Positions 4,642 through 29,908 of a DNA stretch of 37,030 nucleotides are shown one piece after another. The stretch is from a virus. The first letter of the stretch is position 1. Every line of letters starts with the position of its first letter. The DNA lies in IMG/VR virus record IMGVR_UViG_3300042090_002743, positions 1-37,030 of that record; one strand, given 5' to 3'. The notes beneath the pieces were generated by a model. It was not told the origin of the DNA, made no database searches, and saw nothing but the letters and a program-made list of their open reading frames with translations. The translations under genes and the position numbers were made by a program.

Positions 4642-5007
4642 TCAGTACGCGAACACGTACAGACACCGCGCCCACCAGTCCTTCCATTCCAGGCACGTAG
4701 CCGGCCGATGCGCCGCGCACCACCGCGCGTACCGGAGCCGCGACCGCCGCCGCGCGAGCGCGCCGTCGAGCCCGACGAACTCGCCCGACACGCACTGCTG
4801 CTGCTTGGCCCAGGCTGCGGAGTAGAGCGCGAGGTCGCAGCGCTCCTCCAGGTCGCACCAGGCGATCGCGAGGTCGAGCTCGACGCGGACGCGGTCCTCG
4901 GCGGCCGGCACGGCGGGCCGCGGCGCGGCGACGTTCGACGGCATCGGCGCCGGCGCGGGCCGCGCGCAGGCCACGAGCGCAAGGAGGACGAGGGCCTCGG
5001 GCGCCAC
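4642..5007 (-). CDS. Predicted lipoprotein, Cys-rich (moron)
   Basis: A 121-residue protein with a lipoprotein signal: a short hydrophobic stretch (LVLLALVAC) ends in a lipobox-like L-V-A-C with Cys at about residue 14. The mature part is Pro/Ala rich at first and then carries four or more further Cys (WCDLEERCDL, QQQCVS, RWCAAH, ATCLEW, RCLYVF), suggesting disulfides outside the cytoplasm. It has its own promoter (TACCAT ending 6 nt before the GTG start) and lies behind a terminator. It therefore forms a unit separate from the sheath and tube it interrupts. A phage lipoprotein in this place may be a superinfection-exclusion moron; that is a guess from context. No family is recognised. Confidence 0.7.
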   Translation of the reverse strand: MAPEALVLLALVACARPAPAPMPSNVAAPRPAVPAAEDRVRVELDLAIAWCDLEERCDLALYSAAWAKQQQCVSGEFVGLDGALARRRSRLRYARWCAAHRPATCLEWKDWWARCLYVFAY

Positions 5008-5013
5008 GGCGCG

Positions 5014-5022
5014 ATGGTACCG
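5014..5022 (-). promoter_or_regulatory. -10-like element of leaderless lipoprotein gene
   Basis: The minus strand reads CGG-TACCAT with the hexamer at 5019-5014, and the GTG start is at 5007, 6 nt downstream. A transcription start ~7 nt from the -10 would fall on the start codon. No convincing -35 is seen. Confidence 0.5.
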
Positions 5023-5053
5023 CGTCGCGCGTCGACGGCGCGCCGTGAAAGGT

Positions 5054-5080
5054 GACCGCCCGGGCCGGATCCGGGCGGTC
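5054..5080. terminator. Terminator hairpin after the tail sheath gene
   Basis: There is a perfect 10-bp inverted repeat GACCGCCCGG / CCGGGCGGTC (5054-5063 and 5071-5080) with a 7-nt loop. It lies 133 bp downstream of the sheath stop and 35 bp upstream of the lipoprotein promoter. No strong U-tract follows, only CCTTT. The stretch 5081-5212 shows no gene. Confidence 0.65.
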
Positions 5081-5212
5081 GTTCGTCGGTGGCGGTCCTC
5101 GAGTCGGAGTCACCCCCGCGCGGCGGGGCGTGGGCCATCGGCGGCCTCGACATGGTCGCGCCCGGTCTCGTCGCGCCTCGAGAGCGCGACGCGGGGGATC
5201 GCCGTGCGAAGG

Positions 5213-7309
5213 CTATCCGCCGACCCCGGCGTTCGGCGCGGCGTTGACGGTCGTGATGTTGACGGACTCGCCGATCTCGCACTGGAACGTGATGAAGTCC
5301 ATCGACGCGATCGTCTGCACGCGGACGATGATGTAGAAGATGCCCGCCGCGAGCATCTGCGGCGTGTTCCCGGACTTCGCGTCGACCTGGTACCCGACGA
5401 TGCGCTGGTTCTGCGCGTTGTCCGCCGAGACGAGCGTCTCGAGGAAGTCGGTGACCTGGGTGACGAGGTTGTCCTGGTTGAGGATCGTCCCGAGGCTCTT
5501 GACGAACGGCTTGGCGATGATCGCCAGGTTCGCCTCGATGTAGTCCGCCATCTTCCGGCGGTTGATGTGCGTCTGGCCGTTGACGAGGCTCGACGTCACG
5601 CCGCTCTGGAACTCCGGCCCGTCGGTCTTGTCGAACCGGAGCGCGCAGATGCCCGACGCGCGGAACAGCTTGTACGCGTTGATGTCGAGCGTCGCGTACG
5701 GGACGTTCCGGCCGAACCCGATGAGCGGCTGGAGGACGCGCGTCGTCGTCGCCGAGACCTCGCCCGGGTTGTGCTCGGGGTCGAGGTTCGAGAGGATCGC
5801 CGCGAGCCATCCGTCCGTCGTCGTGTCGAGGTTGCCGTTCGTGACGGTCGTCCCGTCCGCGCCCGCGATGGCGATGTTGCTCGCCTCGGGGACGAAGGTC
5901 TGCGCCGGCGGCCAGTTGTAGAACACGCGCTCGCTTCGGTTCGCGCCGACGCCCGGGTCGGACGACCCGGTCACGACGCCGATGACCGTCGCCATCGTGA
6001 ACGCCGACGCGCTCAGCTCCGGCGAGATCGAGCACGTCAGGCCCTGGCCCGCACGCGCCGAGACGTTGTTGCAGAGCGTGTTGAGCGAGCTCCGGATGGT
6101 CGCGCTCTTGCGCGCCGCCCAGATGTGGCTGACCGTCGAGGCCGGCGCCGCGTCGACCAGGAAGCCCTGCATGGCCGCCGTGTAGAGGGCGTCGATCGCC
6201 GAGGCGTTCGCCGCGTTCGGCGCCTGCACCAGCGCCGTGTACGCGACCGCGGTCGTCCCGACCGAGCCGGTCAGGCCCGACAGCGGGTCCGCGGACGTCG
6301 CCGTCAGCGCCGGCGGCGCGACGACCGGGTTCAGGACCGTCGACGCGGCCCACGTCCCGTTCGAGCCCGACGCGCCGGTGCCCGCGTCGTTCGTGAGCGG
6401 ACGGACGGCGACGCTGAAGGTCCCCTGGCTCGTGAAGTTCGGGCTCGGCCCGGCGCCGTACGAGTCGGCCGTGCTGCCCGGGTGGAGCCGCCAGACCATC
6501 GCCGCCGACGTCGTTCCGAAGTCGAAGTTCACGCCGTTCATCGCCTGGACGACGATGGTCGTGTCGTTCGTGATGGAGACGACCCGGAACTGCCCAGCGT
6601 TCGTCAGGTTCGCGCCGGTCGCGCCGAGCGAGCCGAGGACGAGGATGTCGCCGGGCTGGACGCCGACGAGGCCGTCCGGGCGCTGGACCGTCGTGAAGGT
6701 GCCCGTCGCCGACGTGAAGCTGTTCGTCGCCGCCGGCGACCCGGTGGTCACCGAGCCGTCGACGTTCTGGAGGTAGGCGACGAGCGACGAGAAGTTGATC
6801 GCCTGCGCGTTCTTGAGCCGCTCGAGCGTGTGCGCGGCGTCGGTGAAGAGGTAGCCGGCCTGGACGACCGCGGGCTGGACCGGGACGACCGGGTTCGGGT
6901 TCGTCGCGCTCGTGCAGGTCGGGAGCGACCGCCAGAACCGGCAGCCGGTCGCGCTCGCGAGGTTGACCGGGCAGACGACGAGCGTCCCGAATGACTTGTT
7001 CCGCAGTTCGACGAAGCCGTTGCCGCAGCCCGCGCCGAACGCGCCGAGCGTCGAGTCGAAGCCACCGACCTTCTGGATCAGGTCGGCGCTGGAGAGGATC
7101 TGGACCGGGTTCGGGTTCGTCGTGATGTTCCCGTTGACGTCGCAGGCGATGCCGTACGTCATGTCGGCGAACTCGCCGACGAGGGCGGTCACGTTCGTGT
7201 TGACGCCTCCGGTCGGGGTCGGGACCGGAAGGTCGATGATGTTCACACCCTCGATCGAGGTGAGGGTCGCCTGCGAAGGCGTGGACGTGAATCGCTGGAC
7301 GAAGCCCAT
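5213..7309 (-). CDS. Tail sheath protein
   Basis: A 698-residue protein. The C-terminal ~250 residues carry the typical order of contractile sheath proteins: a TDGWLAAILSNLDPEHNPG stretch, then YATLDINAYKLFRASGICAL, then NRRKMADYIEANLAIIAKPF, ending with beta strands (FITFQCEIGESVNITTVNA) that form the inter-subunit meshing arms. The sheath contracts around the tube to drive it through the envelope. The long middle part is Thr/Ser/Ala/Gly rich with beta-type repeats (e.g. VVSITNDTTIVVQAMNG) and probably forms the exposed domains. The ATG at 7309 has AAGGAG 7 nt upstream. Length is within the upper range for sheath proteins. Confidence 0.93.
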   Translation of the reverse strand: MGFVQRFTSTPSQATLTSIEGVNIIDLPVPTPTGGVNTNVTALVGEFADMTYGIACDVNGNITTNPNPVQILSSADLIQKVGGFDSTLGAFGAGCGNGFVELRNKSFGTLVVCPVNLASATGCRFWRSLPTCTSATNPNPVVPVQPAVVQAGYLFTDAAHTLERLKNAQAINFSSLVAYLQNVDGSVTTGSPAATNSFTSATGTFTTVQRPDGLVGVQPGDILVLGSLGATGANLTNAGQFRVVSITNDTTIVVQAMNGVNFDFGTTSAAMVWRLHPGSTADSYGAGPSPNFTSQGTFSVAVRPLTNDAGTGASGSNGTWAASTVLNPVVAPPALTATSADPLSGLTGSVGTTAVAYTALVQAPNAANASAIDALYTAAMQGFLVDAAPASTVSHIWAARKSATIRSSLNTLCNNVSARAGQGLTCSISPELSASAFTMATVIGVVTGSSDPGVGANRSERVFYNWPPAQTFVPEASNIAIAGADGTTVTNGNLDTTTDGWLAAILSNLDPEHNPGEVSATTTRVLQPLIGFGRNVPYATLDINAYKLFRASGICALRFDKTDGPEFQSGVTSSLVNGQTHINRRKMADYIEANLAIIAKPFVKSLGTILNQDNLVTQVTDFLETLVSADNAQNQRIVGYQVDAKSGNTPQMLAAGIFYIIVRVQTIASMDFITFQCEIGESVNITTVNAAPNAGVGG

Positions 7310-7333
7310 GGGTGTGCTCCTTGCTGACTGAGA

Positions 7334-8197
7334 CTATCCTGTAGACCCCGAGGACTCCAAGGGGTCCCCGAGTTGCGCGACCGGGTCCACGACGGTCCCG
7401 TCCTGCGCGAGGAGGAGGTCCTCGACCGCCTCCTTGACCGTCGGCGCCGCCGTCTCGGGCGGGACCGGCGACGTCGGCCGCGGCCGCCCCGGGTTCGCCG
7501 GCGCCGGGTCCGTCGGGTCGTCAACCCGGACGATCACGTGGGCCTGGAGCGTCGGCGGCCGCCGGACGACGACCTCGGCGACCCGGCCCTCCACGAAGAC
7601 CTCCACGGGTCGCAGGCCGTGCCGGGCGAGCTCGGCGCTGTCGCGGTAGTCCGCCCGGACGGGGAGGAACGTCGCGCGCTGTCCGCCGTAGTGCGGAAGC
7701 TCGACGTAGAACCCGTACATCCAATCGACCGGCGCCAGCGCGTCCTCGAGCATGCGCGCGATGAGATCCCGCTCGCCGGGCGTCGCGGTGTGCGCGACGA
7801 TACGGAAGAGGGCGGTGACCTCGGAGCGCTTCTCGACGTACGAGCCGTCCGGCATCCGGTCGCCCTCGAAGACGCGCGGCGTCAGGTTGTCGGCCTCGTA
7901 CTCGGGGTTGCCTTCGAGGAGGATGGCGGCCGCCGGGTACTCGGCCGGCTCGTTCGGCTCGGCCCAGGTCATGTCGACCGAACGGAACCGGACCTCGGCA
8001 CCCGAGTCCTGCGACGAGAGCCGTTCGAGGTACTCCTTGAGCCCGCGCTGCATCGAGGCGACCGCGTCCGCCTCGAAGACGGTCGTCCGCGTCGCCTCGG
8101 TGTCCGGGAGGCGGACAAGGAAGGCCGGGCCAGGCTCGGGCGGGACGAGCCGGGGGAGGTTGCGGACCTCGGGCGGCGGGTCGTGGTCGTAGATCAC
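7334..8197 (-). CDS. Putative tail terminator / tail completion protein
   Basis: A 287-residue protein with a GTG start overlapping the previous stop (GTGA). Residues ~20-200 form an alpha/beta domain (ASMQRGLKEYLERLSSQ, PAAAILLEGNPEYEADNL, VTALFRIVAHTATPGERDLI). This suits neck-to-tail completion proteins, which repeat a conserved pattern of strand, acidic loop and helix. The C-terminal third is Pro/Thr rich and likely disordered. The gene lies between an HK97 gp10-like gene and the sheath, the usual place of the tail terminator, which caps the tube and joins it to the neck. Function is inferred from position. Confidence 0.6.
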   Translation of the reverse strand: MIYDHDPPPEVRNLPRLVPPEPGPAFLVRLPDTEATRTTVFEADAVASMQRGLKEYLERLSSQDSGAEVRFRSVDMTWAEPNEPAEYPAAAILLEGNPEYEADNLTPRVFEGDRMPDGSYVEKRSEVTALFRIVAHTATPGERDLIARMLEDALAPVDWMYGFYVELPHYGGQRATFLPVRADYRDSAELARHGLRPVEVFVEGRVAEVVVRRPPTLQAHVIVRVDDPTDPAPANPGRPRPTSPVPPETAAPTVKEAVEDLLLAQDGTVVDPVAQLGDPLESSGSTG

Positions 8198-8700
8198 CGG
8201 AGCCTCGACAGCGCGCGGCGGACCTCGCGGCGCATCTCGTCGACGACGACGCGGGTGACCTCGGGCTTCGCGCGGCGCATCACGTAGCGGCCGCGGAGCC
8301 CGCGGCGTGCGATCGCGCGGGCGATCGGGAACGCCGCCCGCCGCGCCTCGTCCTTCGAGAGGTGGAGCTTGAGCTTCGCCCAGCGCTCGACCGCGGCGAG
8401 CGGCGGCATCGCCGAGCCGCGCCGACGTCCGCGCTCGATGACGTCCGCGTAGCGCGCGAGGTTGAAGAGGCGGGCGCCGCCCGGGATGCTCGCGGTCCGC
8501 CAGCTCCGACGGTACGTGCCGGTGTGGTTCGCGCCGACCGAGCCGCCCACCGATGCCGGCGGCGCGTTGTCGCCGGCGCGCTGGAGGACCGGGAGCGCGC
8601 GCATCGCGCCGCGCCGGATGCCGCGCTCGGCGGCGGCCCGGAAGGTCTTCACGGCCATGCCGCGGACGTACGCGACGAGCTCGTCGACGGTGAGGTTCAC
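8194..8700 (-). CDS. HK97 gp10-like head-tail connector / neck protein
   Basis: A 168-residue basic protein. I chose the GTG at 8700 (reads VNLTVDELVAYVRG) because it overlaps the upstream stop as GTGA. The middle shows the gp10-family pattern of an N-terminal helix rich in Ala/Arg, then TGTYRRSWRTASIPGG, then ARYADVIERGRRRG, the place where the family has a Tyr-Ala-x-x-x-Glu-x-Gly segment. Such proteins form the minor connector ring at the head-tail joint. The C-terminus is strongly Arg rich. It is coupled to the following terminator-like gene by another GTGA overlap. Confidence 0.7.
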   Translation of the reverse strand: MNLTVDELVAYVRGMAVKTFRAAAERGIRRGAMRALPVLQRAGDNAPPASVGGSVGANHTGTYRRSWRTASIPGGARLFNLARYADVIERGRRRGSAMPPLAAVERWAKLKLHLSKDEARRAAFPIARAIARRGLRGRYVMRRAKPEVTRVVVDEMRREVRRALSRLR

Positions 8701-9671: not shown

Positions 9672-10067
9672 CTACTCCTGGAGGACCCCGACGACCTTCG
9701 TGAACCGGCCCTCGCCCTCGACGAGGACGCACTCGAGGTCAAGCCGGAGCCGGTCGAGCCGGTCCTTCCCGCCGTAGTGGACCGGGTCGAGGAGCTGGCC
9801 GACCTTGAAGAGGTGGACCTGGCCGCCGCCGACGTTGCGCTGTTCGGCCCGGCGGACGCGGTAGACCTGGCGCGGCGCGGAGGGCGCCGGCTCCGTGTTC
9901 GCCGGCGGCGCGGCCGCAGGAGGCGCCTGCGTCGCGGGCGACGTCGGCGTCGCGTCCGCCGGCGGCGCGGTCCAGTCCTTCCGGTCGAGGAGGTCGTCCG
10001 CGGTCGCCGAGCGCTCGGGCGTGAGCTTCGCGGCCTCGAGCGGGTCCAGCTTCGTCTTCGGTGCCAT
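9672..10067 (-). CDS. Hypothetical protein with Pro/Ala linker, after capsid gene
   Basis: A 131-residue protein. Residues ~1-35 are charged (MAPKTKLDPLEAAKLTPERS), ~36-70 are a Pro/Ala/Thr linker, and ~70-131 form a basic domain with YRVRRAEQRNVGGGQVHLF and then LDLECVLVEGEGRFTKVVGV. The ATG at 10067 was chosen because a promoter with -10 TACCCT ends 6 nt before it. It follows the capsid gene behind a terminator, so it opens a new transcription unit that runs through the connector genes to the sheath. Function is unknown. Confidence 0.7.
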   Translation of the reverse strand: MAPKTKLDPLEAAKLTPERSATADDLLDRKDWTAPPADATPTSPATQAPPAAAPPANTEPAPSAPRQVYRVRRAEQRNVGGGQVHLFKVGQLLDPVHYGGKDRLDRLRLDLECVLVEGEGRFTKVVGVLQE

Positions 10068-10073: not shown

Positions 10074-10103
10074 AGGGTACCATCCGCCGGCCGGACGCAG
10101 CAA
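10074..10103 (-). promoter_or_regulatory. Promoter TTGCTG-N18-TACCCT for connector genes
   Basis: On the minus strand TTGCTG (10103-10098) and TACCCT (10079-10074) are 18 bp apart, with TGG directly before the -10 (extended -10). The ATG is 6 nt downstream, so the mRNA would be leaderless. The -35 and spacing are the same as in the promoter at 4611-4640. Confidence 0.65.
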
Positions 10104-13203: not shown

Positions 13204-13590
13204 TCACGCCATCTCCCCGACGAACACGGCGACGTTGGTCAGCGTGCCCGGCGTCCGGACGAGCTGGATCGCGGTGATCGGGACGGTCCGCGAGATGATG
13301 ATGAGCTGGTCGTCGATCGGGATGGACTGGAGGACGCCCGACGCGCTCGTGATCTGTACGGTCATCGGCTGGTCGGCGTTGACGATGACGACGTTGCCGT
13401 TGACGACGCCGGCGTAGGCGACCTGCTGCGGTGTGTCCGCCGTGAGCTGGTAGGGGGCAAGCGTCTTCTGGTCGAGGGTGACGAACTCGACGATCTTGGC
13501 GCCCAGCTCGGCGGCGCCGGAGATCAGCAGCCCGCCGTCCTGTGGCCGCGAGTGCCACCGGGCGTTGAGCTCGAACTCGTCCGTCGGCAC
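13204..13590 (-). CDS. Hypothetical beta-rich structural protein
   Basis: A 128-residue protein starting (GTG) MPTDEFELNARWHSRPQDGG. Most of the sequence alternates hydrophobic strands and turns (GVVNGNVVIVNADQPMTVQI, DDQLIIISRTVPITAIQLVR), as in small phage head or decoration proteins. A weak TAGGCG element ends 6 nt before the GTG, matching the spacing of the leaderless genes here but lacking the final T. It lies next to three tiny genes with a shared C-terminal tail. No family is recognised. Confidence 0.65.
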   Translation of the reverse strand: MPTDEFELNARWHSRPQDGGLLISGAAELGAKIVEFVTLDQKTLAPYQLTADTPQQVAYAGVVNGNVVIVNADQPMTVQITSASGVLQSIPIDDQLIIISRTVPITAIQLVRTPGTLTNVAVFVGEMA

Positions 13591-14254: not shown

Positions 14255-14283
14255 AGGCTGCCACCGCGCCGCCGGGGTGTCAA
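14255..14283 (-). promoter_or_regulatory. Promoter TTGACA-N17-CAGCCT
   Basis: The minus strand has a consensus -35 TTGACA (14283-14278) and CAGCCT (14260-14255) 17 bp downstream. The -10 lacks the first T of TANNNT but keeps the 7-nt distance to the ATG at 14247 seen for other leaderless genes here. Confidence 0.55.
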
Positions 14284-15866: not shown

Positions 15867-16043
15867 TCACCGCCGGCGCATGTGGACGATCTCGGCGACC
15901 GTGAGCCCGACCGTCAGCGCCCACACGAACCGGCCGATCGCCACGAACGTCCCCTCGGACATCCCGTCGAGCTCGTAGGCGAACAACGTCCCGACGAGGA
16001 CGAGGAGGAACGCGACGAGGTGCGGGGTCGGGAGGCCTCTCAC
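15867..16043 (-). CDS. Small two-helix membrane protein
   Basis: A 58-residue protein started by a GTG that overlaps the stop of the Cys-rich gene (GTGA). It has two hydrophobic segments, HLVAFLLVLVGTLFAY (about 7-22) and FVAIGRFVWALTVGLTVAEI (about 32-51), and a short MRRR tail. The two-TM layout and size would fit a small holin, but it lies in the head module far from the lysin-like gene, so this is only a possibility. Confidence 0.65.
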   Translation of the reverse strand: MRGLPTPHLVAFLLVLVGTLFAYELDGMSEGTFVAIGRFVWALTVGLTVAEIVHMRRR

Positions 16044-16507
16044 CGCGCCTCCGCGTATCGCCAGCGCGCGCAGCGGCCGAGCGCCTCGACCGCGGCGGGC
16101 CGGCCGTCGACGTAGACGGCCGCGCAGCAGCCGCTCCACTCGCCCTCGACGCCCGAGTAGTGCCGGCAGTTGCGGCACGCGGCGCCGCCGTCGGGCGCGC
16201 GGACGAGCCCGGCGAGCGTCGGGTCGGCGTACTGCCGACCGCCGAGCGTCGACGAGTAGAGCTGCGGCGGTCCGCTCGCGTGGTGGCCGCAGACCATCTC
16301 GGCGCCGACCTCGGTCGCCTGGCCGAACAGCAGGCACCGCTCGCTCGCCTCGGCGTAGAGCGCGCAGTTGCCGCAGCGCTTGCCCTCGGGGCCGCGGCCG
16401 CGCTCGTAGAGGACGTCGCTCGGCGAGGGCATCTCGACGGGCGAGACGGGCGGGCCGCCGCCGGCCTCGACGAAGACGGCCAGGGCGGATGGACGGATGC
16501 CGGCCAC
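16040..16507 (-). CDS. Protein with two Cys4-type motifs (HiPIP-like)
   Basis: A 155-residue protein with two similar cysteine modules. The first (about residues 45-75) is CGNCALYAEASERC, then VCGHH. The second (about 110-150) is CRNCRHYSGVEGEWSGCC, then GRCARW. The pattern C-x-x-C-x-x-Tyr, then Cys, then Cys resembles high-potential iron-sulfur and related small phage Cys4 proteins. It could bind zinc or an iron-sulfur cluster. Start GTG at 16507, just after the upstream TAG. Coupled by GTGA to the membrane protein. The role is unknown. Confidence 0.7.
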   Translation of the reverse strand: MAGIRPSALAVFVEAGGGPPVSPVEMPSPSDVLYERGRGPEGKRCGNCALYAEASERCLLFGQATEVGAEMVCGHHASGPPQLYSSTLGGRQYADPTLAGLVRAPDGGAACRNCRHYSGVEGEWSGCCAAVYVDGRPAAVEALGRCARWRYAEAR

Positions 16508-16975: not shown

Positions 16976-16984
16976 ACGCTACCA
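16976..16984 (-). promoter_or_regulatory. Extended -10 TGGTAGCGT, leaderless gene
   Basis: The minus strand reads TGGTAGCGT at 16984-16976, with the GTG start 6 nt downstream at 16969. The nonamer and spacing are identical to those before the glycine-rich gene at 18373. Confidence 0.65.
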
Positions 16985-17497: not shown

Positions 17498-18373
17498 CTA
17501 GGTGTACTCGTCGATGATGACGTAGCCGTGCGTGCCCGCGCCGCCGGCCGCCGCCGCGCTCGCGTTGATCGACAGGCCGCCGGACCCGCCGCCGCCGAAG
17601 CCCTGGCCCGGGTTGCCCGCGCCGGCCGCGATCGAGTGACCGCCGCCCGCGCCGAACGGCGACGACCCGCCGAACCCGGATGTCCCGATGGTCCCGCCGA
17701 AGCCCTGGCCCGCACCGCCCGGCTCCTGCGCCGTGCTGATGTCGCCCGCGGACGAGCCGGTCGCGAAGCCGCCGCCCTGCGCCTGGATATTCGACGCCGA
17801 CGAGGCCACGAACCCGCCGCCGGGTCCGCCCTTCGCGGTAATCGTCGTGCCCGCGATCACGACCGACGTATCGCCGCCCGTGCCGCCCGCGCCGCCGGTG
17901 TTCGCGCCCGCGGCGCCCGCCGCGCCGACGGTGACGGCGCCGCCGGTGATGGGGTAGTTGCCCGCGCCCGGGTCGATGTACTGCTCGACGTACGCGCCGG
18001 CCGCGCCGCCGGCGCCGACCGCGACCTGCGAGGCCGAGCTCGCCGCGACACCGCCGCCTCCGCCGCCGCCGCCGACGAGGCGGACGTGGACGCGGTTCGC
18101 CTTCGGGTTCGGGGTGTAGGTGCCGGAGGCCGAGAAGGTCTGCCGGCCGAGGTAGTAGCTCTGCGCGACCGGCTGGACCTGGGCGGACTCGCCGGACGGG
18201 ATGTTCGCGTTCATCGACAGGAAGCCCTGCGGGATCGTCGCCCCGAAGGCCGCCTGGACGTTCGCGAGCGTGTCGTTGATGACGACGCCCTGACCCGGGG
18301 CCAGCGCGCCGCCGCCGTACTGGGCGGGAATGGTGACGATGCCCGGGGACTGATTGCGGACGGCTACCGACAT
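17498..18373 (-). CDS. Glycine-rich adhesin/fibre-like protein
   Basis: A 291-residue protein. Residues 1-85 form a non-repetitive N-terminal part (IVTIPAQYGGGALAPGQG). From ~85 (FSASGTYTPNPKANRVHVRL) a glycine-rich domain follows, with runs of up to 8 Gly and many Gly-Gly-x repeats (GGAGGTGGDTSVVIAG, GFGGSSPFGAGGGHSIAAGA). It closes with a conserved-looking end, GTHGYVIIDEYT. A phrase like xTYTxNP..., then RVxLVGGGGGGG, is typical of glycine-rich domains in phage tail fibres, which can fold as polyglycine-II bundles as in the T-even gp38-type adhesins. It probably contacts host receptors or decorates the virion. Its position between portal and MuF is unusual for a fibre. Confidence 0.75.
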   Translation of the reverse strand: MSVAVRNQSPGIVTIPAQYGGGALAPGQGVVINDTLANVQAAFGATIPQGFLSMNANIPSGESAQVQPVAQSYYLGRQTFSASGTYTPNPKANRVHVRLVGGGGGGGGVAASSASQVAVGAGGAAGAYVEQYIDPGAGNYPITGGAVTVGAAGAAGANTGGAGGTGGDTSVVIAGTTITAKGGPGGGFVASSASNIQAQGGGFATGSSAGDISTAQEPGGAGQGFGGTIGTSGFGGSSPFGAGGGHSIAAGAGNPGQGFGGGGSGGLSINASAAAAGGAGTHGYVIIDEYT

Positions 18374-18379: not shown

Positions 18380-18388
18380 ACGCTACCA
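18380..18388 (-). promoter_or_regulatory. Extended -10 TGGTAGCGT for glycine-rich gene
   Basis: TGGTAGCGT lies at 18388-18380 on the minus strand, 6 nt before the ATG at 18373. It forms one half of a divergent promoter pair with the plus-strand TAGCCT at 18408-18413. Confidence 0.65.
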
Positions 18389-18421: not shown

Positions 18422-18670
18422 GTGGGCTGGCAGGAGCACTCGCGCGACCGGGACGGCACGGTCTACTGGCGGTGCTCGTGGTGTCGGCGCTGGGCGGTGA
18501 CGCCGACCTGGTCGACGCCGACACGGTGCGTGTGCCAGGGCGGGGTCGACGCCGACGCGCCGCGTCCCTTCCGATGGTTCGGGGCCGGCGCTATCGTAGA
18601 CCGATGGACTCGACGCTCGCAGTACAGCTCGTCGACGACTGCATCCGGTCGACCGCGCAGACGATGCTGA
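18422..18670 (+). CDS. Plus-strand zinc-ribbon-like small protein
   Basis: An 82-codon frame from GTG reads MGWQEHSRDRDGTVYWRCSW. Its first 45 residues hold C-x-x-C (YWRCSWCRRW) and C-x-C (TRCVCQGG), a plausible zinc ribbon. The rest is low in structure and overlaps the next plus-strand gene by 67 bp in another frame. It is one of the only two convincing genes on the plus strand and has its own -10-like element. Function is unknown; it may be a moron-type insertion. Confidence 0.5.
   Translation: MGWQEHSRDRDGTVYWRCSWCRRWAVTPTWSTPTRCVCQGGVDADAPRPFRWFGAGAIVDRWTRRSQYSSSTTASGRPRRRC
18569..18597 (+). promoter_or_regulatory. Promoter TTCCGA-N17-TATCGT, leaderless plus-strand gene
   Basis: TATCGT (18592-18597) ends 6 nt before the ATG at 18604, the same distance as for the minus-strand leaderless genes. 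TTCCGA lies 17 bp upstream as a weak -35. Confidence 0.5.
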
Positions 18671-19577: not shown

Positions 19578-19583
19578 ATGCTA
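19578..19583 (-). promoter_or_regulatory. -10-like TAGCAT overlapping a stop codon
   Basis: The hexamer TAGCAT (19583-19578) ends 7 nt before the ATG at 19570. Its TAG is the stop codon of the ParB-like gene. Confidence 0.5.
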
Positions 19584-19838
19584 CCGCGGGCGGAGGACGA
19601 TGACCTCGGCGTTCTGGACGCCGGCCGCCGCCCACGCGGCGACGCGGTGGTGGCCGTCGAGGATGGCCTGACGCGGGCGGTCGTCGAGGACGAAGATGGC
19701 GGGGAGCGCGTTGCCCTCTCGAAGGCTGGCGACGAGGGCGGCGACCTTCTTGGTGTCGAGCCCGTGCCGGATGAGACCGGCGAGGTGCGGGACGGGCCAG
19801 GACTCGAGCGCGGTCGCGATGGGGCGAGAGGTGCTCAC
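19581..19838 (-). CDS. ParB/sulfiredoxin-fold domain protein
   Basis: An 85-residue protein, GTG start overlapping the upstream stop (GTGA). The body follows the ParB N-terminal pattern: GLDTKKVAALVASLREGNAL, then an aliphatic strand (PAIFVLDD), then AILDGHHRVAAWAAAG. The D-G-H-H-R box is the nucleotide/catalytic motif of the family. Length covers only the single domain, so it is not a partition protein. Phage proteins of this type are suspected nucleases or NTP-binding enzymes; the activity here is unknown. Confidence 0.7.
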   Translation of the reverse strand: MSTSRPIATALESWPVPHLAGLIRHGLDTKKVAALVASLREGNALPAIFVLDDRPRQAILDGHHRVAAWAAAGVQNAEVIVLRPR

Positions 19839-20343: not shown

Positions 20344-20489
20344 CGCCTGCCCCGTTGCGGCTTCGGGGGCGGTGGCGGGTCGACGCGCGGCGGCTCGATC
20401 GCCGGCCAGGACCCGACGCCGCCGCCGGTCCCGTTCCAGTCGCCCGGCGTCGGGAGCGCCGGGAGCTGCGGAGGCTTCTTACGTGGCAC
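20340..20489 (-). CDS. Small Pro-rich protein after portal
   Basis: A 49-residue protein starting (GTG) MPRKKPPQLPALPTPGDWNG, with a Gly-rich turn and a poly-Pro stretch, ending KPQRGRR. It overlaps the 3' end of the portal by 11 bp in another frame, has GGAGGA 6-7 nt upstream, and its end overlaps the next ATG, so it is probably translated. Function is unknown. Confidence 0.5.
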   Translation of the reverse strand: MPRKKPPQLPALPTPGDWNGTGGGVGSWPAIEPPRVDPPPPPKPQRGRR

Positions 20490-22455
20490 CGGGTCCTCCT
20501 GGTGGCGCGCCGGCGGGAGGCGACACGGGCGGCGTCGCCGCAGGCGGAGGCGCGGACGGAGCGGCGGGTGCGAGCGCGGGCTGCGGCATCGGCTTGAGGT
20601 TGCCGACGATGCGCATCGCGTCGCGCTGCGAGACCGGGAACGAGATCTCGATGATGGCGAGCGCGGACTGGACGTCGAGCTGTCCGGCCTTGACGGCCTG
20701 GGCGAGCTCAACGAGGGCGGTGATCTGCGCACCGTTGAGGGCGGACTGTTGGACGTTCGCGCTGTCGACCTTCGCGTCCTCGGCGCCCGGCGCCGACGGA
20801 TCGTCGGTCGGCCCCGTGACGGCCTGACGCTCGAGCTCCATCTGGTCGGCGATGGTCTCGCGGCGGATGTTCTCGAGCATCGAGTTGACGTCCTCGACGC
20901 CGAAGAAGCCGGCGAGGTAGCGCGCGGCGGTCGCGCGGTCGATGAGCGTCGCATGCTTGGCGGTCGTCGCGGCGGTGACCGCGTAGCCGGCGTCCTGCGC
21001 GCCGGGCTCGTAGTACGCGGGCCACGAGAGGTCGATCTGGGAGTAGGGCCCGTCGCCGATCTGCCGCGGCGTCCGCCGGCGGACCTCGCCGGACGCGTCG
21101 TCGACCTCGACCTTGTCGGGAAGGACGATGGTCCGCCGGACGATGCCGCTCGCGGTCTGGACCGGACGGCCGATGCGCTTCGCGGCGACGCAGATCATGT
21201 TGAGGAGCTTCTTGACGCCCTGTTCGCCGTACTGCTCGCGGAGCGAGTCCGCGCGGGCGATCATCGGCGACATCAGCCGCTCGACCTCGGTCGCGGTCAT
21301 CTGCCGGTCGGGGAGCGCAAGGACGCAGCCGGTCACCTCGCAGATCATCGCCTTGTAGTCCTCGATCTTCTTGCGCGCCATGTCGATGCCGCTGCCGGTC
21401 ATCTCCATGTACTTCGCGTCGCCGCCCTGGCCGAGCTTGATGGCCGTCCCGACGCCGATGGCGACCGAGCCCATGTCCTTCTCGTCCGAGACGACGACCG
21501 TCGGGTCGCACGTCGCGATGATGCCCTTGTCGCTCTGCGAGTTGAGGCGGTCGATCGCCTCCGCGAGGTCGAGGCAGCCCATGCAGTCCGGGTCGCCGTC
21601 GAGGTCGGTCGGGTTCGGCGTGTTCTGGATCCAGACGACGGGGCAGAAGCCGAGGCCGTGCTTGACCACCGCCGCCGGCTCCCAGCGCGGCGGCGCGTCG
21701 TCCTCGGGCTCGGGGACCGGGACGGGACGGAAGACGACATCGCTCTCGCGGTCGATCACGCGCCGGTACCAGTACGCGACCTCGTGCCACTGGCCCTGGA
21801 GGTCCTTGACCTCGCGCGTGAAGACGTAGCGGTAGTCGATGCGGTCGAGGACGAGCTGCGAGCGGTCGAGGAACGTCGGGCGCGCCCATCGCGGGTCGAA
21901 CACCTCGAACGCCGGCCGGCCGTTGATCAGCTTGAACCCGACGATGGTCGAGCCCATCCCGCCGCCGATCGACCGCGCGAGCATCATCGTCGGCCAGAGC
22001 CGGCCGACCTCGGCGACGGTGTTGAGGAAGTCCTCGGTCTTCGGGTCGCCCGAGACCGAGATCTTCGGGTGCCGCTTGTTCGAGAAGAGCATCGACGTGA
22101 ACCGGTCGACGATGACCTTCACGACGTGGTACGGCGTCGTCGGCCGACGGAGCGCGACGGGGAGCGTTGTCGGGCCGGCGATGTAGAAGCCGGGCGGCAC
22201 GAAGCCCTGCAGGGCGACGCTGTCCCGCTCGACCATGCCGAGGTACCGCGAGCCGTCCCACGCGACGGTCCGCGCGGCGTACTGGTCGGTGCGGTAGAAG
22301 CTCCAGTACTTGTCGAGGACCTGCTGGCGCGGCGACATCTGGAGCGCCGCGCGCGAGGAGCCGACCTCCTCCTCGTGCATCACGCCGGCGGCGACCATCG
22401 AGATAGGTCCGCCGGGGAGGCCCGCGGCGGTCGCGGTCGAGGCCATCGTGGTCAC
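20479..22455 (-). CDS. Portal protein
   Basis: A 658-residue protein encoded downstream of the terminases. Portal features are the size, a mixed alpha/beta clip-wing pattern with PYHVVKVIVDRFTSMLFSNK (residues ~100-120), the segment GFCPVVWIQNTPNP leading into SQSDKGIIATCDPTVVVSDE, and a helix-rich stem before a Pro/Ala-rich disordered C-terminus (from ~620). The portal forms the dodecameric ring for DNA packaging and exit. The GTG at 22455 is preferred because TAGCCT ends exactly 6 nt upstream; an in-frame ATG three codons later is the alternative. The TAA stop is one of very few in the window. Confidence 0.85.
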   Translation of the reverse strand: MTTMASTATAAGLPGGPISMVAAGVMHEEEVGSSRAALQMSPRQQVLDKYWSFYRTDQYAARTVAWDGSRYLGMVERDSVALQGFVPPGFYIAGPTTLPVALRRPTTPYHVVKVIVDRFTSMLFSNKRHPKISVSGDPKTEDFLNTVAEVGRLWPTMMLARSIGGGMGSTIVGFKLINGRPAFEVFDPRWARPTFLDRSQLVLDRIDYRYVFTREVKDLQGQWHEVAYWYRRVIDRESDVVFRPVPVPEPEDDAPPRWEPAAVVKHGLGFCPVVWIQNTPNPTDLDGDPDCMGCLDLAEAIDRLNSQSDKGIIATCDPTVVVSDEKDMGSVAIGVGTAIKLGQGGDAKYMEMTGSGIDMARKKIEDYKAMICEVTGCVLALPDRQMTATEVERLMSPMIARADSLREQYGEQGVKKLLNMICVAAKRIGRPVQTASGIVRRTIVLPDKVEVDDASGEVRRRTPRQIGDGPYSQIDLSWPAYYEPGAQDAGYAVTAATTAKHATLIDRATAARYLAGFFGVEDVNSMLENIRRETIADQMELERQAVTGPTDDPSAPGAEDAKVDSANVQQSALNGAQITALVELAQAVKAGQLDVQSALAIIEISFPVSQRDAMRIVGNLKPMPQPALAPAAPSAPPPAATPPVSPPAGAPPGGPGAT

Positions 22456-22461: not shown

Positions 22462-22470
22462 AGGCTACCA
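22462..22470 (-). promoter_or_regulatory. Extended -10 TGGTAGCCT before portal
   Basis: TGG-TAGCCT (hexamer 22467-22462) ends 6 nt before the GTG at 22455. No -35 of note is seen. The element implies a leaderless portal transcript starting inside the late region. Confidence 0.6.
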
Positions 22471-24814: not shown

Positions 24815-24820
24815 ATGCTA
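24815..24820 (-). promoter_or_regulatory. -10-like TAGCAT overlapping RHH stop codon
   Basis: TAGCAT (24820-24815) ends 7 nt before the ATG at 24807, and its first three bases are the TAG stop of the RHH gene at 24818-24976. Confidence 0.5.
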
Positions 24821-24982: not shown

Positions 24983-25011
24983 AACGTAAGGACAAACGTC
25001 ATCACGGTCAA
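24983..25011 (-). promoter_or_regulatory. Sigma-70-like promoter TTGACC-N17-TACGTT
   Basis: The minus strand has TTGACC (25011-25006), a 17-bp spacer and TACGTT (24988-24983). The GTG start of the RHH gene is 6 nt downstream, which places transcription start on the start codon. It is the best-formed promoter in the window and begins just behind the terminase stop codon. Confidence 0.75.
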
Positions 25012-25018: not shown

Positions 25019-26593
25019 CTACCGGCGGTTGAAGTCGACGCTGGTGTGCGACTCGACGTGCGTCGAGCCCATGCGGATTCCCTCGCGCGCGAAGAAGCTC
25101 GCCATGAGGCGGTCGCCGGTGTGCGTCGTCGGCGAGTAGTAGAGCATCTCGTCGACCCACGCGCGGACCTCGGGGTGCATCCGCGCGGCGAGGCCGACGA
25201 GGTTGCCGCCCTCGTTGGGGATGCGCCACTTGCCGCCCTGCATCTCGACGCTGATGGACGCGATGCCGTGCTCGGGGTGCGCCTTGTTGCGGCCGGTCGT
25301 GTAGGGCTTGACCGGGACGCTCGTCCCGGCGCGGGCAAACTGGACGATAAAGTCCTGGGCGGCGTTGTTCTCGACGACGACGATGGACCGGAAGCGATGG
25401 TGCTTCTCGGCGATGCGGGCGACGATCTCGGGCCCGGACCAGCGGCCGGTGTCGATCTCTAGGACGCTCCGGTTGCCCATCGGGTCGACGGCGATGGTGA
25501 AGAAGCACGTCTGGTCGGCGCCGTCCTTCTGCTGGACGGCAAGGTCGACGCCCGTATACGTCCGGTACCCGCGCGGGAGGTCGGTGAGTGCGGTCGCGAT
25601 GCTCGTCCCGGCGCCGAGGCGGAGGGCGATCTCGATGCCGAGCCGCGAGAAGATGCTCGTCGAGTCGTCGCGCGCCTCGCACAGCATCTGCCGTGCGAAC
25701 TCGATGGGCGTCATCTCGCCGCGCTTCTTCTCGATGCGCTCGAGGCTCCAGCGCTCGGGCCAGCGCGAGGTCGGGATGAGGAAGCCGCACGGGAGGCCGG
25801 TGAGCCGCTCGGGCGGCGTGACGCTGTGCGGTCCGGCGTGGCCGGCGGTGAGACGGCACCGGACGTTCGGGTCGAGGACGGGGAACCGGAAGGCCTGCCA
25901 GCCGGGACGTGCGGCGAACTGGTGGAGGGCGTCCTGCGGGTGGAACGCGTTGCCGACGATGCGGACGCGCGCGGTCGCGGTGAGGCGGCCGAGGAGGGCC
26001 GAGTCCATCCAGTCGATCGTGTCCTTGCGCCCGTCGGCGGTCCGCGTGTTCTCGAAGTCGAGGAGGTCGTCGATGGCGATGATGTCGAGGCGGGCGCCCT
26101 GGATGGAGCCGTGGATGCCGGCGACGGTGACGGACGGGTCCTTCGAGAAGGTCGGACGGCGGACGGAGAACTGGTGCTCGCCCCACGGCTCGCCGGGGAC
26201 GAGGTCGGGGAAGACCTCGCGGAGCTCCTTCGACTGCTCGATGTACGTCTTGATCGACCGCGCGAACTTGGCGGCCTGGTTCTGGGTGTTGGAGAGGAGG
26301 AGGAACCGGAGGCTCGGGTCGCGGCCGAGCTCGAAGAGCGTGCGGAGGACGGTGATCTGCTGGCTCTTGCCGCCCTCGACGTGGGCCCAGAGGACGAGGC
26401 GCTCATGCTCCTCGGCGTAGCGGTGCCACGACTGGTGGATGGGCGCCTGGACGATAGGGATGCCGGTCTTCTCGTCGCGGCCGACGAATTCGCAGAAGAC
26501 GTTGACGTCGGTCCGCGCGAGGCGTCGGACCTTCTCGCGTCGGGCCGCCGCGAGCCGGACGGCCTCGGACCGCGAGCGCGCGACGGCGACCAT
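25019..26593 (-). CDS. Terminase large subunit
   Basis: A 524-residue packaging ATPase/nuclease. In the N-terminal ATPase domain, LVLWAHVEGGKSQQITVLRT (Walker A around residues 70-77, Gly-Gly-Lys-Ser) and LDIIAIDDLLDF (Walker B, ~159-170, with Asp-Asp rather than Asp-Glu) are visible. The C-terminal RNase H-like nuclease has YTGVDLAVQQ (Asp340), SIVVVENNAAQDF (Glu398) and HTGDRLMASFF (Asp484) as catalytic acidic residues. It cuts concatemers and pumps DNA into heads through the portal. The ATG lies 6 nt behind TAGGCT, whose TAG is the stop of the small terminase gene. Residues 27-36 are encoded by one copy of a 28-bp repeat. Confidence 0.92.
   Translation of the reverse strand: MVAVARSRSEAVRLAAARREKVRRLARTDVNVFCEFVGRDEKTGIPIVQAPIHQSWHRYAEEHERLVLWAHVEGGKSQQITVLRTLFELGRDPSLRFLLLSNTQNQAAKFARSIKTYIEQSKELREVFPDLVPGEPWGEHQFSVRRPTFSKDPSVTVAGIHGSIQGARLDIIAIDDLLDFENTRTADGRKDTIDWMDSALLGRLTATARVRIVGNAFHPQDALHQFAARPGWQAFRFPVLDPNVRCRLTAGHAGPHSVTPPERLTGLPCGFLIPTSRWPERWSLERIEKKRGEMTPIEFARQMLCEARDDSTSIFSRLGIEIALRLGAGTSIATALTDLPRGYRTYTGVDLAVQQKDGADQTCFFTIAVDPMGNRSVLEIDTGRWSGPEIVARIAEKHHRFRSIVVVENNAAQDFIVQFARAGTSVPVKPYTTGRNKAHPEHGIASISVEMQGGKWRIPNEGGNLVGLAARMHPEVRAWVDEMLYYSPTTHTGDRLMASFFAREGIRMGSTHVESHTSVDFNRR
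26488..26515. repeat. 28-bp direct repeat, copy A (inside terminase large)
   Basis: These 28 bases are identical to 27876-27903 and lie in the same orientation. Here they encode residues 27-36 of the large terminase (R-T-D-V-N-V-F-C-E-F). Similarity stops sharply on both sides. Confidence 0.95.
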
Positions 26594-26599: not shown

Positions 26600-26605
26600 A
26601 GCCTA
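26600..26605 (-). promoter_or_regulatory. -10-like TAGGCT before terminase large, overlapping a stop
   Basis: TAGGCT (26605-26600) starts with the TAG stop of the small terminase candidate and ends 6 nt before the ATG at 26593. No clear -35 or SD is seen. Confidence 0.45.
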
Positions 26606-27217
26606 GCGCGGCTTGACGGGCGGCGTCGCGTTCGCCGGCGGCGCGGCGGCGGGCGTCGAGGTCGTGTCGACGATCGCACGCCCGGTCGGGAGCCCGAGGG
26701 CGCGCTCGGCGACACGCTCGAGGATGCCGTCCTGGAACTGGCAGGCGGCGTCGAGGTCGCCGTCCGCGAGGCCGGCGAGGTCGCCCGCGCCGCCCGGGGT
26801 CATGTCGGCGACGGCGATGGCGACCTTCTTCGGCGCGGCGTGTCCGGTGAACTGCGAGATGCACTCGAGGACGAGCCGCTCGTGGTTGCGGTTGGGGCCC
26901 TGACGCGTCCGGTCGAGGAGGTCCATCCAGAGGAGGAGCAGCGCCTCGCGGGTGACGCCGACGAACTGCTCGTTGCGGATGTCGACGGCGAGCTGGTGGG
27001 CGCGGTCGGCGGCCTGGATGCCGCACGCGAAGTGCTGGCGGACAAGGCGCTTCATCTCGGCCGGCAGCAGCATCGGGTCGCGGATCCACTGCGTGATGAT
27101 CCACTGCGCGCGGCGCTCGGTCATCTCGAAGGCCTCGCGCTTCCGTCGGATGGGCGTCGGGTGCGGCTTGGGCCTCGGGCGTTCCGGTTCGTCGCTGCTG
27201 CCGTCGTCCGCGGCCAT
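26603..27217 (-). CDS. Terminase small subunit (candidate)
   Basis: A 204-residue protein directly upstream of the large terminase, the usual place of TerS. Residues 1-30 are charged and Pro rich. A helical region follows with ERRAQWIITQWIRDPMLLPA and MKRLVRQHFACGIQAADRAH, which may form the DNA-binding part. The middle is helical, suiting the oligomerisation core, and the end is an Ala/Pro/Thr tail. TerS binds the packaging start site and hands DNA to TerL. The ATG follows TGGTAGATT by 7 nt, so the mRNA is likely leaderless. No specific family signature is visible; the call is by position and shape. Confidence 0.65.
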   Translation of the reverse strand: MAADDGSSDEPERPRPKPHPTPIRRKREAFEMTERRAQWIITQWIRDPMLLPAEMKRLVRQHFACGIQAADRAHQLAVDIRNEQFVGVTREALLLLWMDLLDRTRQGPNRNHERLVLECISQFTGHAAPKKVAIAVADMTPGGAGDLAGLADGDLDAACQFQDGILERVAERALGLPTGRAIVDTTSTPAAAPPANATPPVKPR

Positions 27218-27224: not shown

Positions 27225-27233
27225 AATCTACCA
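27225..27233 (-). promoter_or_regulatory. Extended -10 TGGTAGATT before small terminase
   Basis: TGGTAGATT (27233-27225) ends 7 nt before the ATG at 27217. Upstream TTCTGG (27254-27249) at 18-bp spacing is a weak -35. Confidence 0.6.
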
Positions 27234-27349: not shown

Positions 27350-27399
27350 CGCGTCAGGCTTCGCCATGGAGCTCGGGCTCGGGGCGGAGCGTTCGGCGC

Positions 27400-27524
27400 G
27401 GTGTCCCCGCGTTCGATGTCTTGGGATGCTCGCCTGGGGTGCCCGCCCTTGGTGTCCCCCTATAGGGGGACGGGGACACCAGGGCGGCGGTGTCCCCGGG
27501 GGAGTCGGGGACACTCGGGGACAC
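27400..27524. repeat. GTGTCCCC box cluster with central palindrome
   Basis: GGTGTCCCC occurs at 27400, 27451 and 27489. The inverse GGGGACAC occurs at 27472, 27507 and 27517. GTCCCCCTATAGGGGGAC (27454-27471) is a perfect 18-bp palindrome. TGGTGTCCCC (27450-27459) and GGGGACACCA (27472-27481) form a further inverted repeat around it. This pattern suggests a multi-site binding region or strong cruciform/hairpins. Confidence 0.85.
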
Positions 27525-27660
27525 AGGGGACGTCGCCCCTTCGATGCCCGCTTGGCGTGCCCGGTCGCGGGTCCACAGCCACGTCCCCGCGCCGGCCTTG
27601 GGAACCCGTACGACGTCGGGGTGCGCCCCGTTCGCGAGCCGGTCCGTCGCCAACGCTGCG

Positions 27661-27759: not shown

Positions 27760-27835
27760 TGGTGGTCCCGGCAGGACTCGGACCTGCGTCTTCCCCTTAG
27801 CACGGTGGCGCTCTTTCCAGTTGAGCTACGGGACC
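27760..27835 (-). tRNA. tRNA-like gene, anticodon GCU (Ser codon), atypical
   Basis: The minus strand folds as a 76-nt cloverleaf: acceptor GGTCCCG/CGGGACC (7 perfect pairs), TA, D stem GCTC/GAGC with G18-G19 in the loop, T stem GCAGG/CCTGC, discriminator A and an encoded CCA end. The anticodon loop GTGCTAA has U33 and anticodon GCU (27801-27799), which reads Ser AGC/AGU. Three features are odd. The variable loop is 4 nt (AGAC) although bacterial tRNA-Ser has a long variable arm. The anticodon stem CCACC/GGGGA has two mismatches. The T loop reads TCCGAGT, with C at the near-invariant position 55. It may be a degenerate or non-standard tRNA, with an Arg-like body being one alternative. Confidence 0.7.
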
Positions 27836-27875: not shown

Positions 27876-27903
27876 ATTCGCAGAAGACGTTGACGTCGGT
27901 CCG
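27876..27903. repeat. 28-bp direct repeat, copy B (non-coding)
   Basis: Perfect copy of 26488-26515, 1388 bp away in the same orientation, in the gap between the sigma-like gene and the tRNA-like gene. It is a fragment of the large terminase reading frame (R-T-D-V-N-V-F-C-E) that runs into a TAG stop here. Confidence 0.95.
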
Positions 27904-27907
27904 GGAC

Positions 27908-27924
27908 GCGACGCGAAGCGTCGC
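27908..27924. terminator. Hairpin after the sigma-like gene
   Basis: 7-bp perfect arms GCGACGC (27908-27914) and GCGTCGC (27918-27924) with a 3-nt loop, 5 bp behind the TAG stop at 27930. Terminator-like, without a clear U-tract. Confidence 0.55.
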
Positions 27925-27929
27925 TCGCG

Positions 27930-29351
27930 CTAGTTCCCGAGCATCGCGGCGCGCAGGTGATCGAGGGCGTCCCGTTCGATCTGCCGGATCCGCTCGCGGG
28001 AGAGCCCGGCGCGCATCTCGCCGCCCCATCGGAACCGTCCGAGCCGCTGGCCGACCTGCTTGAGGGTCAGGCCGTCCTCGCCGAGGTAGCGGAGGCGGAT
28101 GACGTCGCGTTCGCGCTTGGGAAGCTTCGCGAGCGCGGCCTCGATCTGCGCGCGGCGGTCCTCCGTGTCGGCCCGGTCCTCGGCGTCCGGGTCCTCCGCG
28201 GGGATCGTCTCGTGGAGGGACGCGAGCTCGCCGTCCGGCCCCGAGCGCGGCGCGTCCAGGCTCACGTCGACCCGGCCGCGCGCGAGGAGGCGGCGGACGT
28301 CGTTGACGCCGACCTTCGCGTACGCGGCGAGGTCCTCGGGCGACGCGCCGGCGCCGAGCGCCTGCTGGGCCCGGTAGAGCCGCGAGCGGATGTGGCCGTA
28401 GCGCGCGGGGAGCCGGATGGCCTCGCCGGTGTTCTCGATGCACCGGCAGATGTGGTGGCGGATCCACCAGACGACATACGTCGACAGCGCCGTGTCGCGT
28501 CCGACGTCGAACTCCCGAAGCCCGCGGATGAGGCCGATCGTCCCCTCCTGGACGAGGTCCTCGTAGGGGACCGGGGCCCACTTTATCTTGCGCGCGAACG
28601 CGTGGACCAGACCGATGTTCCTGCGGACGAGGATGTCGAGAGCGTACGCGGCGCGGCGCGGATTCGTCGAGCGGGCGGCCCGGACGAGCGCGACCGTGTC
28701 CGCGCGCGACATCCGGCCCTTTCCGTCGAGGACGGCCCGCGTTGGGAGAGGGTCCTCGTCGTCGTCGCCGTCCGGCGTCGCAGCCGCAGCGGGCGACGCG
28801 GGCGAGCGCGGGGACGCCTGCGCGCCCTGGGTCGCGTGTCCGGTCGGCTTCCCGCACCCGCGCGCGTTCCCGCCGACGAACCCGCAGCGCGAGCACGTCG
28901 TGACGCCATTCGGGCCGGGCGGCCGCGGCTGCGGGGCCTGTACCGCCATGGGCGGGGCGGGGAGGGCGGGGGCGGGCGCGCCGTCGACGCGCGACACGAG
29001 CGAGGCCAGCGCGTCGTCGAGGACGCCGTCGAGGCGACCCCGCAGCTCGGCCACGAGCCGCTCGGTGATCCGTCCGACGACCGCCTCGACCTTCGACCGG
29101 ACGAGCGTGTCGAGCGCGTCCCGCTCGGCGTCCGCGCGGCGCGCGGCGGCCGAGATGTACGGCGCCGGCTCGGTCCGCGGCCGTGTCGCGCCTCGAGGAC
29201 GCGGCGCGGACTTCGTGTACGGGTTGACGAGCCCGTGCTTCGCGACGAAGCGCGCAAGCGTCTTGCGGGCGACGCCGAGCTCGCGGGCGGCCGCCTTGAC
29301 GCTTCCGGCGCGCTTGAGGGCGCGGGCGACGCGGTCGGGTCCGGGCAGCAT
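27930..29351 (-). CDS. Sigma-70-family factor with N-terminal HTH and zinc ribbon
   Basis: A 473-residue protein. Residues ~8-42 form a Fis-like helix-turn-helix (GSVKAAARELGVARKTLARF). A helical Arg/Ala/Asp region follows, then a Cys4-like ribbon with C153-x-x-C156 and C166...H172 (TTCSRCGFVGGNARGCGKPT) and an Asp/Pro linker. Residues ~236-305 are sigma region 2, with YEDLVQEGTIGLIRGL and the promoter-melting/-10 segment TYVVWWIRHHICRCI. Region 3 follows, and region 4 (~403-470) ends in LSRERIRQIERDALDHLR. Eleven residues (439-449, RFRWGGEMRAG) interrupt the region-4 HTH before LSRERIRQIE. It would direct RNA polymerase to phage promoters. The HTH/ribbon fusion is unusual. Confidence 0.88.
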   Translation of the reverse strand: MLPGPDRVARALKRAGSVKAAARELGVARKTLARFVAKHGLVNPYTKSAPRPRGATRPRTEPAPYISAAARRADAERDALDTLVRSKVEAVVGRITERLVAELRGRLDGVLDDALASLVSRVDGAPAPALPAPPMAVQAPQPRPPGPNGVTTCSRCGFVGGNARGCGKPTGHATQGAQASPRSPASPAAAATPDGDDDEDPLPTRAVLDGKGRMSRADTVALVRAARSTNPRRAAYALDILVRRNIGLVHAFARKIKWAPVPYEDLVQEGTIGLIRGLREFDVGRDTALSTYVVWWIRHHICRCIENTGEAIRLPARYGHIRSRLYRAQQALGAGASPEDLAAYAKVGVNDVRRLLARGRVDVSLDAPRSGPDGELASLHETIPAEDPDAEDRADTEDRRAQIEAALAKLPKRERDVIRLRYLGEDGLTLKQVGQRLGRFRWGGEMRAGLSRERIRQIERDALDHLRAAMLGN

Positions 29352-29355
29352 GAGC

Positions 29356-29604: not shown

Positions 29605-29627
29605 TGGACACCTCCCGGGGCCCGACC

Positions 29628-29636
29628 ACTCTACCA
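29628..29636 (-). promoter_or_regulatory. Extended -10 TGGTAGAGT overlapping a stop codon
   Basis: TGGTAGAGT (29636-29628) contains the TGG-TAG end of the small membrane protein gene. It lies 24 nt before the GTG of the winged-helix gene, so that mRNA would have a short leader with the GGGAGG site, unlike the leaderless genes. Confidence 0.5.
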
Positions 29637-29741
29637 GAGTCCGAACAGCCATCCGAACGCGTAGACGCAGGCCGCGACCGCGAACAGGGCGGCGAGCGCG
29701 GACGCGACGACCGCGACCGCGAGGTCCACAAGCGTCCTCAC
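29631..29741 (-). CDS. Tiny single-TM protein
   Basis: A 36-residue protein started by GTG at 29741, with GGAAGG ~8 nt upstream. Residues 4-33 are one hydrophobic helix (LAVAVVASALAALFAVAACV) ending in aromatic residues (WLFGLW). It is one of two adjacent tiny membrane proteins; they may be lysis-accessory or signalling peptides, but nothing identifies the role. Confidence 0.5.
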   Translation of the reverse strand: MRTLVDLAVAVVASALAALFAVAACVYAFGWLFGLW

Positions 29742-29775
29742 GGGCCGGCCTTCCGCTTCCGGGCCGCGGTCGACA

Positions 29776-29895
29776 CTATCCGGACCTCGCGACCAGGACG
29801 CAGACGACCGCGAGCGCGGCCAGGAGGAAGATGGAGGCGAGGAACATCGCCAGCTCCCACGACGCATCGGAAGGGACGAGACGGCGGCGGGACAT
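29776..29895 (-). CDS. Tiny single-TM protein
   Basis: A 39-residue protein starting MSRRRLVPSDASWELAMFLA, with a basic N-terminus and one hydrophobic helix (FLASIFLLAALAVVCVLVA), likely N-in. The ATG at 29895 has TACCAT ending 7 nt upstream. The frame stays open upstream to a GTG at 30099 that overlaps the methylase stop (GTGA), so an N-terminally extended 107-residue form is possible. Function is unknown. Confidence 0.5.
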   Translation of the reverse strand: MSRRRLVPSDASWELAMFLASIFLLAALAVVCVLVARSG

Positions 29896-29902
29896 CCGGC
29901 CC

Positions 29903-29908
29903 ATGGTA
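29903..29908 (-). promoter_or_regulatory. -10-like TACCAT before tiny TM gene
   Basis: CGC-TACCAT (29908-29903) ends 7 nt before the ATG at 29895. Between 29909 and 30095 no separate gene is seen. Confidence 0.4.

Follow-up and report, generated by a model that had tools for sequence, protein, structure and literature searches.

In Actinobacteria, Deinococcus-Thermus and some Acidobacteria and delta-proteobacteria, leaderless genes are marked by the hexamer TANNNT at a distance of about 12 bp upstream (PMC3160421, PMC12340547), and in Deinococcus this signal is supported by experiment (PMC12340547). Most middle and late mRNAs of the Thermus phage phiYS40, which is classed with the Myoviridae (PMC2771037), are leaderless according to the summary given in a review (Sevostyanova et al. 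2007, as reviewed in PMC3594737), and the middle and late promoters of another Thermus phage, P23-45, are of the extended -10 (TGn) type (PMC7403470). Here we describe TANNNT hexamers that end 6 or 7 nucleotides (nt) ahead of start codons in the IMG/VR record IMGVR_UViG_3300042090_002743, a viral stretch of 37,030 bp with 71% GC (guanine plus cytosine) and almost all genes on the minus strand, which was analysed at its full length and is called the window below. About ten of these hexamers very probably belong to leaderless promoters of the structural module, which are inherited in a phage family and would be read by the primary sigma factor of the host.

Like phiYS40, the window phage has a contractile tail, as indicated by its sheath gene (5213-7309, matching phrog_23), and a TANNNT peak at -12, its leaderless genes being predictions. 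It differs from phiYS40, which has 33% GC in the stretch read and a known host, in its high GC content and in the confinement of its promoters to the structural module; the phiYS40-type programme includes a rise of IF2 and a fall of IF3 in the infected host. No Thermus phage was found among the matches listed for sheath, terminase (20 of 41) and portal, and hence no sequence relationship to phiYS40. With P23-45 the window shares the TG one base ahead of the hexamer, seen at five of the eight sites of the window that do not overlap a stop codon, but in P23-45 only 3 of 78 starts carry TANNNT at -12/-13, and that phage employs gp39, a protein remodelling the host sigma, and no phage sigma. The likeness to bacterial leaderless genes extends to the hexamer, its distance, the lack of a Shine-Dalgarno (SD) site and an optional -35 box; here, however, the signal is carried by a virus and found at about 16% of its genes. 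Since leaderless genes have been described in bacteria and in phiYS40, the kind as such is already known, and the idea of the original prediction that leaderless late genes would be unusual in a contractile-tailed phage, if taken to mean unprecedented, finds no support in view of phiYS40, as far as the review summary (PMC3594737) and its classification (PMC2771037) go. What is new are the examples, namely this phage family and the conserved site in its capsid operon.

Genes in the window were called by us on codon usage alone, with a caller blind to the upstream DNA. All twelve hexamers named by the original prediction were present at -12 or -13 (a gap of 6 or 7 nt) on the strand given for them. 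With a retrained caller, TANNNT occupied -12/-13 in 10 of 61 called starts and in 2 of 1,483 other ATG or GTG codons; with the first caller the counts were 9/58 and 3/1,486, and its three control matches are in keeping with the sites of the original list that remain (24807, 24976 and 29895). Scanning from -18 to -8, no called start had the hexamer at any of the remaining offsets. An unbiased search over 25,600 pairs of pattern and offset placed TA...T at -12 on top (p = 1.4e-11, uncorrected). The window holds ten copies of the more specific GGTA(G/C)NNT, nine of them on the minus strand, and eight of these nine stand 6-7 nt ahead of a listed start; among the 16 intergenic minus-strand TANNNTs, seven show this spacing, where random placement gives 0.26 (maximum 4 in 20,000 trials). 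The enrichment thus withstood comparison with control start codons and with a random null, but the set is not phage-wide, as had been claimed: the sites are confined to the structural module between 5 and 27 kb. A second record, G001 (IMGVR_UViG_3300014201_000011, 45,004 bp), matches window positions 9432-37030 at 99.97% identity and adds 17.4 kb past the right end, giving a combined genome of about 54.4 kb; 10 of 42 genes of the structural module carry the hexamer, but none of the 43 genes located in this extension or elsewhere in the window does (p = 5e-4). The same pipeline detected TANNNT at -12/-13 in 14 of 58 starts of phiYS40, again with the peak at -12, and in none of the starts of Mx8 (0/74) and phiC31 (0/50). 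Plasmid MP1 of Deinococcus radiodurans, with 4 of 42 annotated starts, can serve only as a weak positive control.

The genes behind these hexamers, named here by the first base of their start codon, also differ from the others in their translation signals. An SD-like site precedes none of the ten hexamer genes and 32 of the 51 others (Fisher p = 2e-4), and the gaps to the upstream gene are larger for hexamer genes (p = 0.002). Seven of the ten have no in-frame start further upstream. A longer reading is impossible for 16969, 18373, 22455 and 26593, where the hexamer's own TAG stops the frame at -12. The N-termini of the terminase, the tail-fibre-like protein and the gene 9672-10067 align with those in relatives. 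The last of these genes is leaderless-type in the window and SD-led in the homologs L011, G020 and L010, which at the same time support its start; judged by these sequences, it is a change of expression mode inside the phage family.

In the arrangement we propose, the -10 element (TANNNT, often TGG-extended) of primary-sigma (sigma-70/sigma-A) promoters would end 6-7 nt ahead of the start codon, and because of this distance transcription would be expected to begin on or beside the first base of that codon. The first gene of each unit would then be translated from a 5'-terminal AUG or GUG without SD site, and the later genes through SD sites. Position, enrichment, exclusion of SD sites, -35 spacing and conservation are observed; where transcription starts, and that translation in vivo is leaderless, is what we infer. 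Members of the phage family have the arrangement by inheritance, and the start of the capsid operon shows this best.

Searches with sheath and terminase yielded related contigs of viruses, about 65 in number and with 48-72% GC; loci overlap partly from one search to another. Summed over the family (the window and a few near-duplicate records included), TANNNT stands at -12/-13 in 74 of 1,948 starts and in 437 of 86,319 control codons. For the 46 family sites without SD and without stop overlap, with duplicates mostly removed, a spacer of 17 or 18 nt separates a TTG from the hexamer in 15, and any other spacer from 8 to 29 nt does so in none to two; such a preference points indirectly to a sigma70-type promoter rather than to a translation signal. 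The portal gene carries TANNNT also in G020, G002 and G003, at protein identities of 42-57%. The coexistence of leaderless-type promoters with SD-led genes, as originally put forward, thus finds support in the exclusion of SD sites, the larger upstream gaps, the family-wide TTG at 17/18 nt and the conserved orthologous sites.

Conservation is clearest in the stretch between the head-morphogenesis gene and the homolog of gene 13204-13590, which could be compared in 42 regions: the succession TTG-like-N16-18-TANNNT-N4-8-start occurs in 22 of them, whereas shuffles lead one to expect 1.2. In the 20 aligned examples of this capsid-operon promoter the start is ATG throughout, the gap is 5-8 nt, and the base at -12 is T. 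The window ortholog reads TTGACA (14278-14283)-N17-CAGCCT (14255-14260)-N7-ATG at 14247, minus strand. The protein starting at 14247, MSRFQRYHALPGISVRDP, aligns at its N-terminus with those of G020 (MKQDLRYLRLPGVSVRDP) and L010 (MRRPEYLRLPGISTRDP), and for this reason we regard the site as the ortholog of the conserved promoter with its first base changed. CANNNT is found in the window alone among the 42 regions, and no further C-12 promoter was found in the window or G001. This homology vindicates one of the five weaker sites of the original prediction; 13590, 14885 and 34128 do not match the hexamer, and at 18422 a TAGCCT lies at -14 and is not in frame with the gene as called. In G014 (27354-27578) and G015 (8011-8235), the capsid-operon gene apparently has an SD-bearing leader between a -10-like sequence and the start, an arrangement that suggests an orthologous gene switching between a leaderless and an SD-led start.

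Several points weigh against leaderless promoters read by the host sigma. The TA is also part of a stop codon at two sites (19570 and 26593), several genes without TANNNT lack a clear SD as well, and a recognisable -35 box is present at only two to three of the window's own sites. Furthermore, the single cellular genome with clear sheath relatives, a metagenome-assembled genome (MAG) of Armatimonadetes, showed the leaderless signal at 1 of 101 starts in the sampled contigs.

The window phage encodes a sigma-70 family factor with regions 2-4 (27930-29351, minus strand), and the TANNNT sites might accordingly be real promoters of the phage's own sigma regulon for late expression of the structural module, their leaderless placement merely following from compact genes. 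All promoters lie in the module adjoining this gene and none elsewhere, and they are denser and more uniform (GGTAGC-type) than those of relatives. However, relatives that lack this sigma, e.g. G002, have the same promoters; the factor itself recurs in just one of 20 relative records, G001, which is the same phage, and a sigma region 4 above cut-off was seen in 2 of 16 relative records (just one besides the same phage). Both of its -12-contact residues are off consensus, which argues against a preference for T at -12. We therefore consider such a regulon improbable and favour the host primary sigma, since no phage sigma is detectable in many of the relatives that share these promoters. It should also be noted that one protein of a relative (L143, G003:C1 near 36948-37037) has sigma region 4 only, together with a second helix-turn-helix (HTH)-like part with a weak Csa3-like match and no region 2.

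A gap of 6-7 nt would also permit a leader of 0-3 nt, and for 24976 and 27217 there are downstream in-frame ATGs with an SD site, so that these genes might have very short leaders or begin further downstream and would then not be strictly leaderless. For the other hexamer genes no SD-led in-frame start exists within 40 codons downstream; the in-frame TAG stops mentioned above and the agreement of N-termini with homologs, which holds for 14247 as well as for the three genes already named, likewise speak against such a reading, and we judge it highly improbable. That chance, composition or gene calling created the pattern is hardly conceivable: stop codons near starts can supply a TA and the originally listed sites were selected, but the upstream-blind caller, the control codons, random placement, pattern ranking and conservation in relatives all reject this explanation.

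Returning to the predicted leaderless promoters themselves, those named below are on the minus strand except where stated. The structural module opens with the gene at ATG 27217, 7 nt behind a TGG-extended TAGATT (27225-27230). The ATG 26593 of the large terminase gene (25019-26593) lies 6 nt from TAGGCT (26600-26605), with the TAG serving as stop of gene 26603-27217. The GTG 24976 of a 52-amino-acid open reading frame (ORF) has TACGTT (24983-24988) at 6 nt and, at N17, the -35 box TTGACC (25006-25011); the portal gene (20479-22455, GTG 22455) has a TGG-extended TAGCCT (22462-22467), also at 6 nt. At ATG 19570 the TAGCAT (19578-19583) stands off by 7 nt and its TAG doubles as the stop of gene 19581-19838. 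TATCGT (18592-18597) precedes ATG 18604 of a 69-amino-acid plus-strand gene by 6 nt, although longer in-frame starts exist. The same distance and the TGG-extended TAGCGT are seen ahead of ATG 18373 of the tail-fibre-like gene 17498-18373 (18380-18385), where the G020 homolog has TANNNT too, and ahead of GTG 16969 (16976-16981). ATG 10067 follows a TGG-extended TACCCT (10074-10079) by 6 nt, with TTGCTG (10098-10103) at N18; all three -35 boxes of the original prediction, including the TTGACA of the capsid operon, were found as described. Finally, TACCAT (5014-5019) ends 6 nt ahead of GTG 5007 of the 121-amino-acid gene 4642-5007, which has neither SD nor upstream in-frame start. Two further listed sites are doubtful: TAGCAT (24815-24820), 7 nt from ATG 24807, because the in-frame ATG 24816 just 9 nt upstream has a good SD (AGGAG, 7 nt) and is preferred, and TACCAT (29903-29908), 7 nt from ATG 29895, because that ORF has 39 codons and a weak coding signal.

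The phage sigma deserves attention beyond its role as a rival to the host factor. Its region 2.4 reads WWIRHHICRC, with H and C where Escherichia coli sigma-70 has Q437 and T440, and solved primary sigmas read WWIRQAITR; it also has an N-terminal HTH-like part and, relative to other sigmas, an extra stretch of about 11 residues inside region 4. The substitutions Q437H and T440I of E. coli sigma-70 are suppressors of changes from T to C at -12 (PMC2613000). These residues and suppressor data, taken with the C at -12 of the capsid promoter, allow the tentative and on balance unlikely reading that the specificity of the phage sigma at -12 is altered and that its cognate site is the C-12 capsid-operon promoter. 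The phage would in that case have transferred its main capsid promoter from the host sigma to its own, with the leaderless start kept and the other leaderless promoters left to the host sigma. Variation at the two residues is not rare, since two of eight other phage sigmas compared depart from the consensus at both. The pairing, suggestive as it is, concerns a single promoter and a single sigma, and either coincidence or decay of the promoter could account for it.

Besides sheath, portal, large terminase and tail-fibre-like protein, the window encodes a major head protein, a Dam-like methylase and a tRNA-Ser (GCT), the latter at 27760-27835, where it separates the sigma gene from the beginning of the structural module. 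The leaderless-type gene 4642-5007, situated between the sheath and tube genes, encodes a small protein that contains cysteine and begins like a lipoprotein (LVACARPAP), and for which no homologs were found in the related phages. Protein 16040-16507 passes the Pfam cut-off for the family of high-potential iron-sulfur proteins (E 6.6e-6), which is odd beside virion genes and may be a match of the cysteine pattern only.

Regarding the host, no close relative was returned when isolated phages were searched by tblastn with sheath, terminase, portal and sigma, or plasmids with sheath. A genome scan yielded the one Armatimonadetes MAG, in which the sheath relatives sit on two separate contigs (L076 and G021:C172), the match on L076 being split into two pieces in different frames, and a profile search across 291 genomes from that phylum yielded only one further match, which is weak and partial. 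Another Armatimonadota genome, G029, does show the leaderless signal (5 of 38 starts). The actinobacterial marker WhiB was missing in 16 relative records, a result that speaks weakly against an actinobacterial host, and the sigma-like protein of G003 with region 4 only offered no clue to the host.

If the pairing of the phage sigma with the C-12 promoter holds, it would be a natural test of the specificity of sigma region 2.4. For annotation, the hexamer offers a usable start signal to gene callers on such phages. Leaderless expression, so far described chiefly for cellular genes and for a single Thermus phage, would be extended to a whole uncultured family of contractile-tailed phages, in which about half of the examined relatives keep the capsid-operon promoter at its place.

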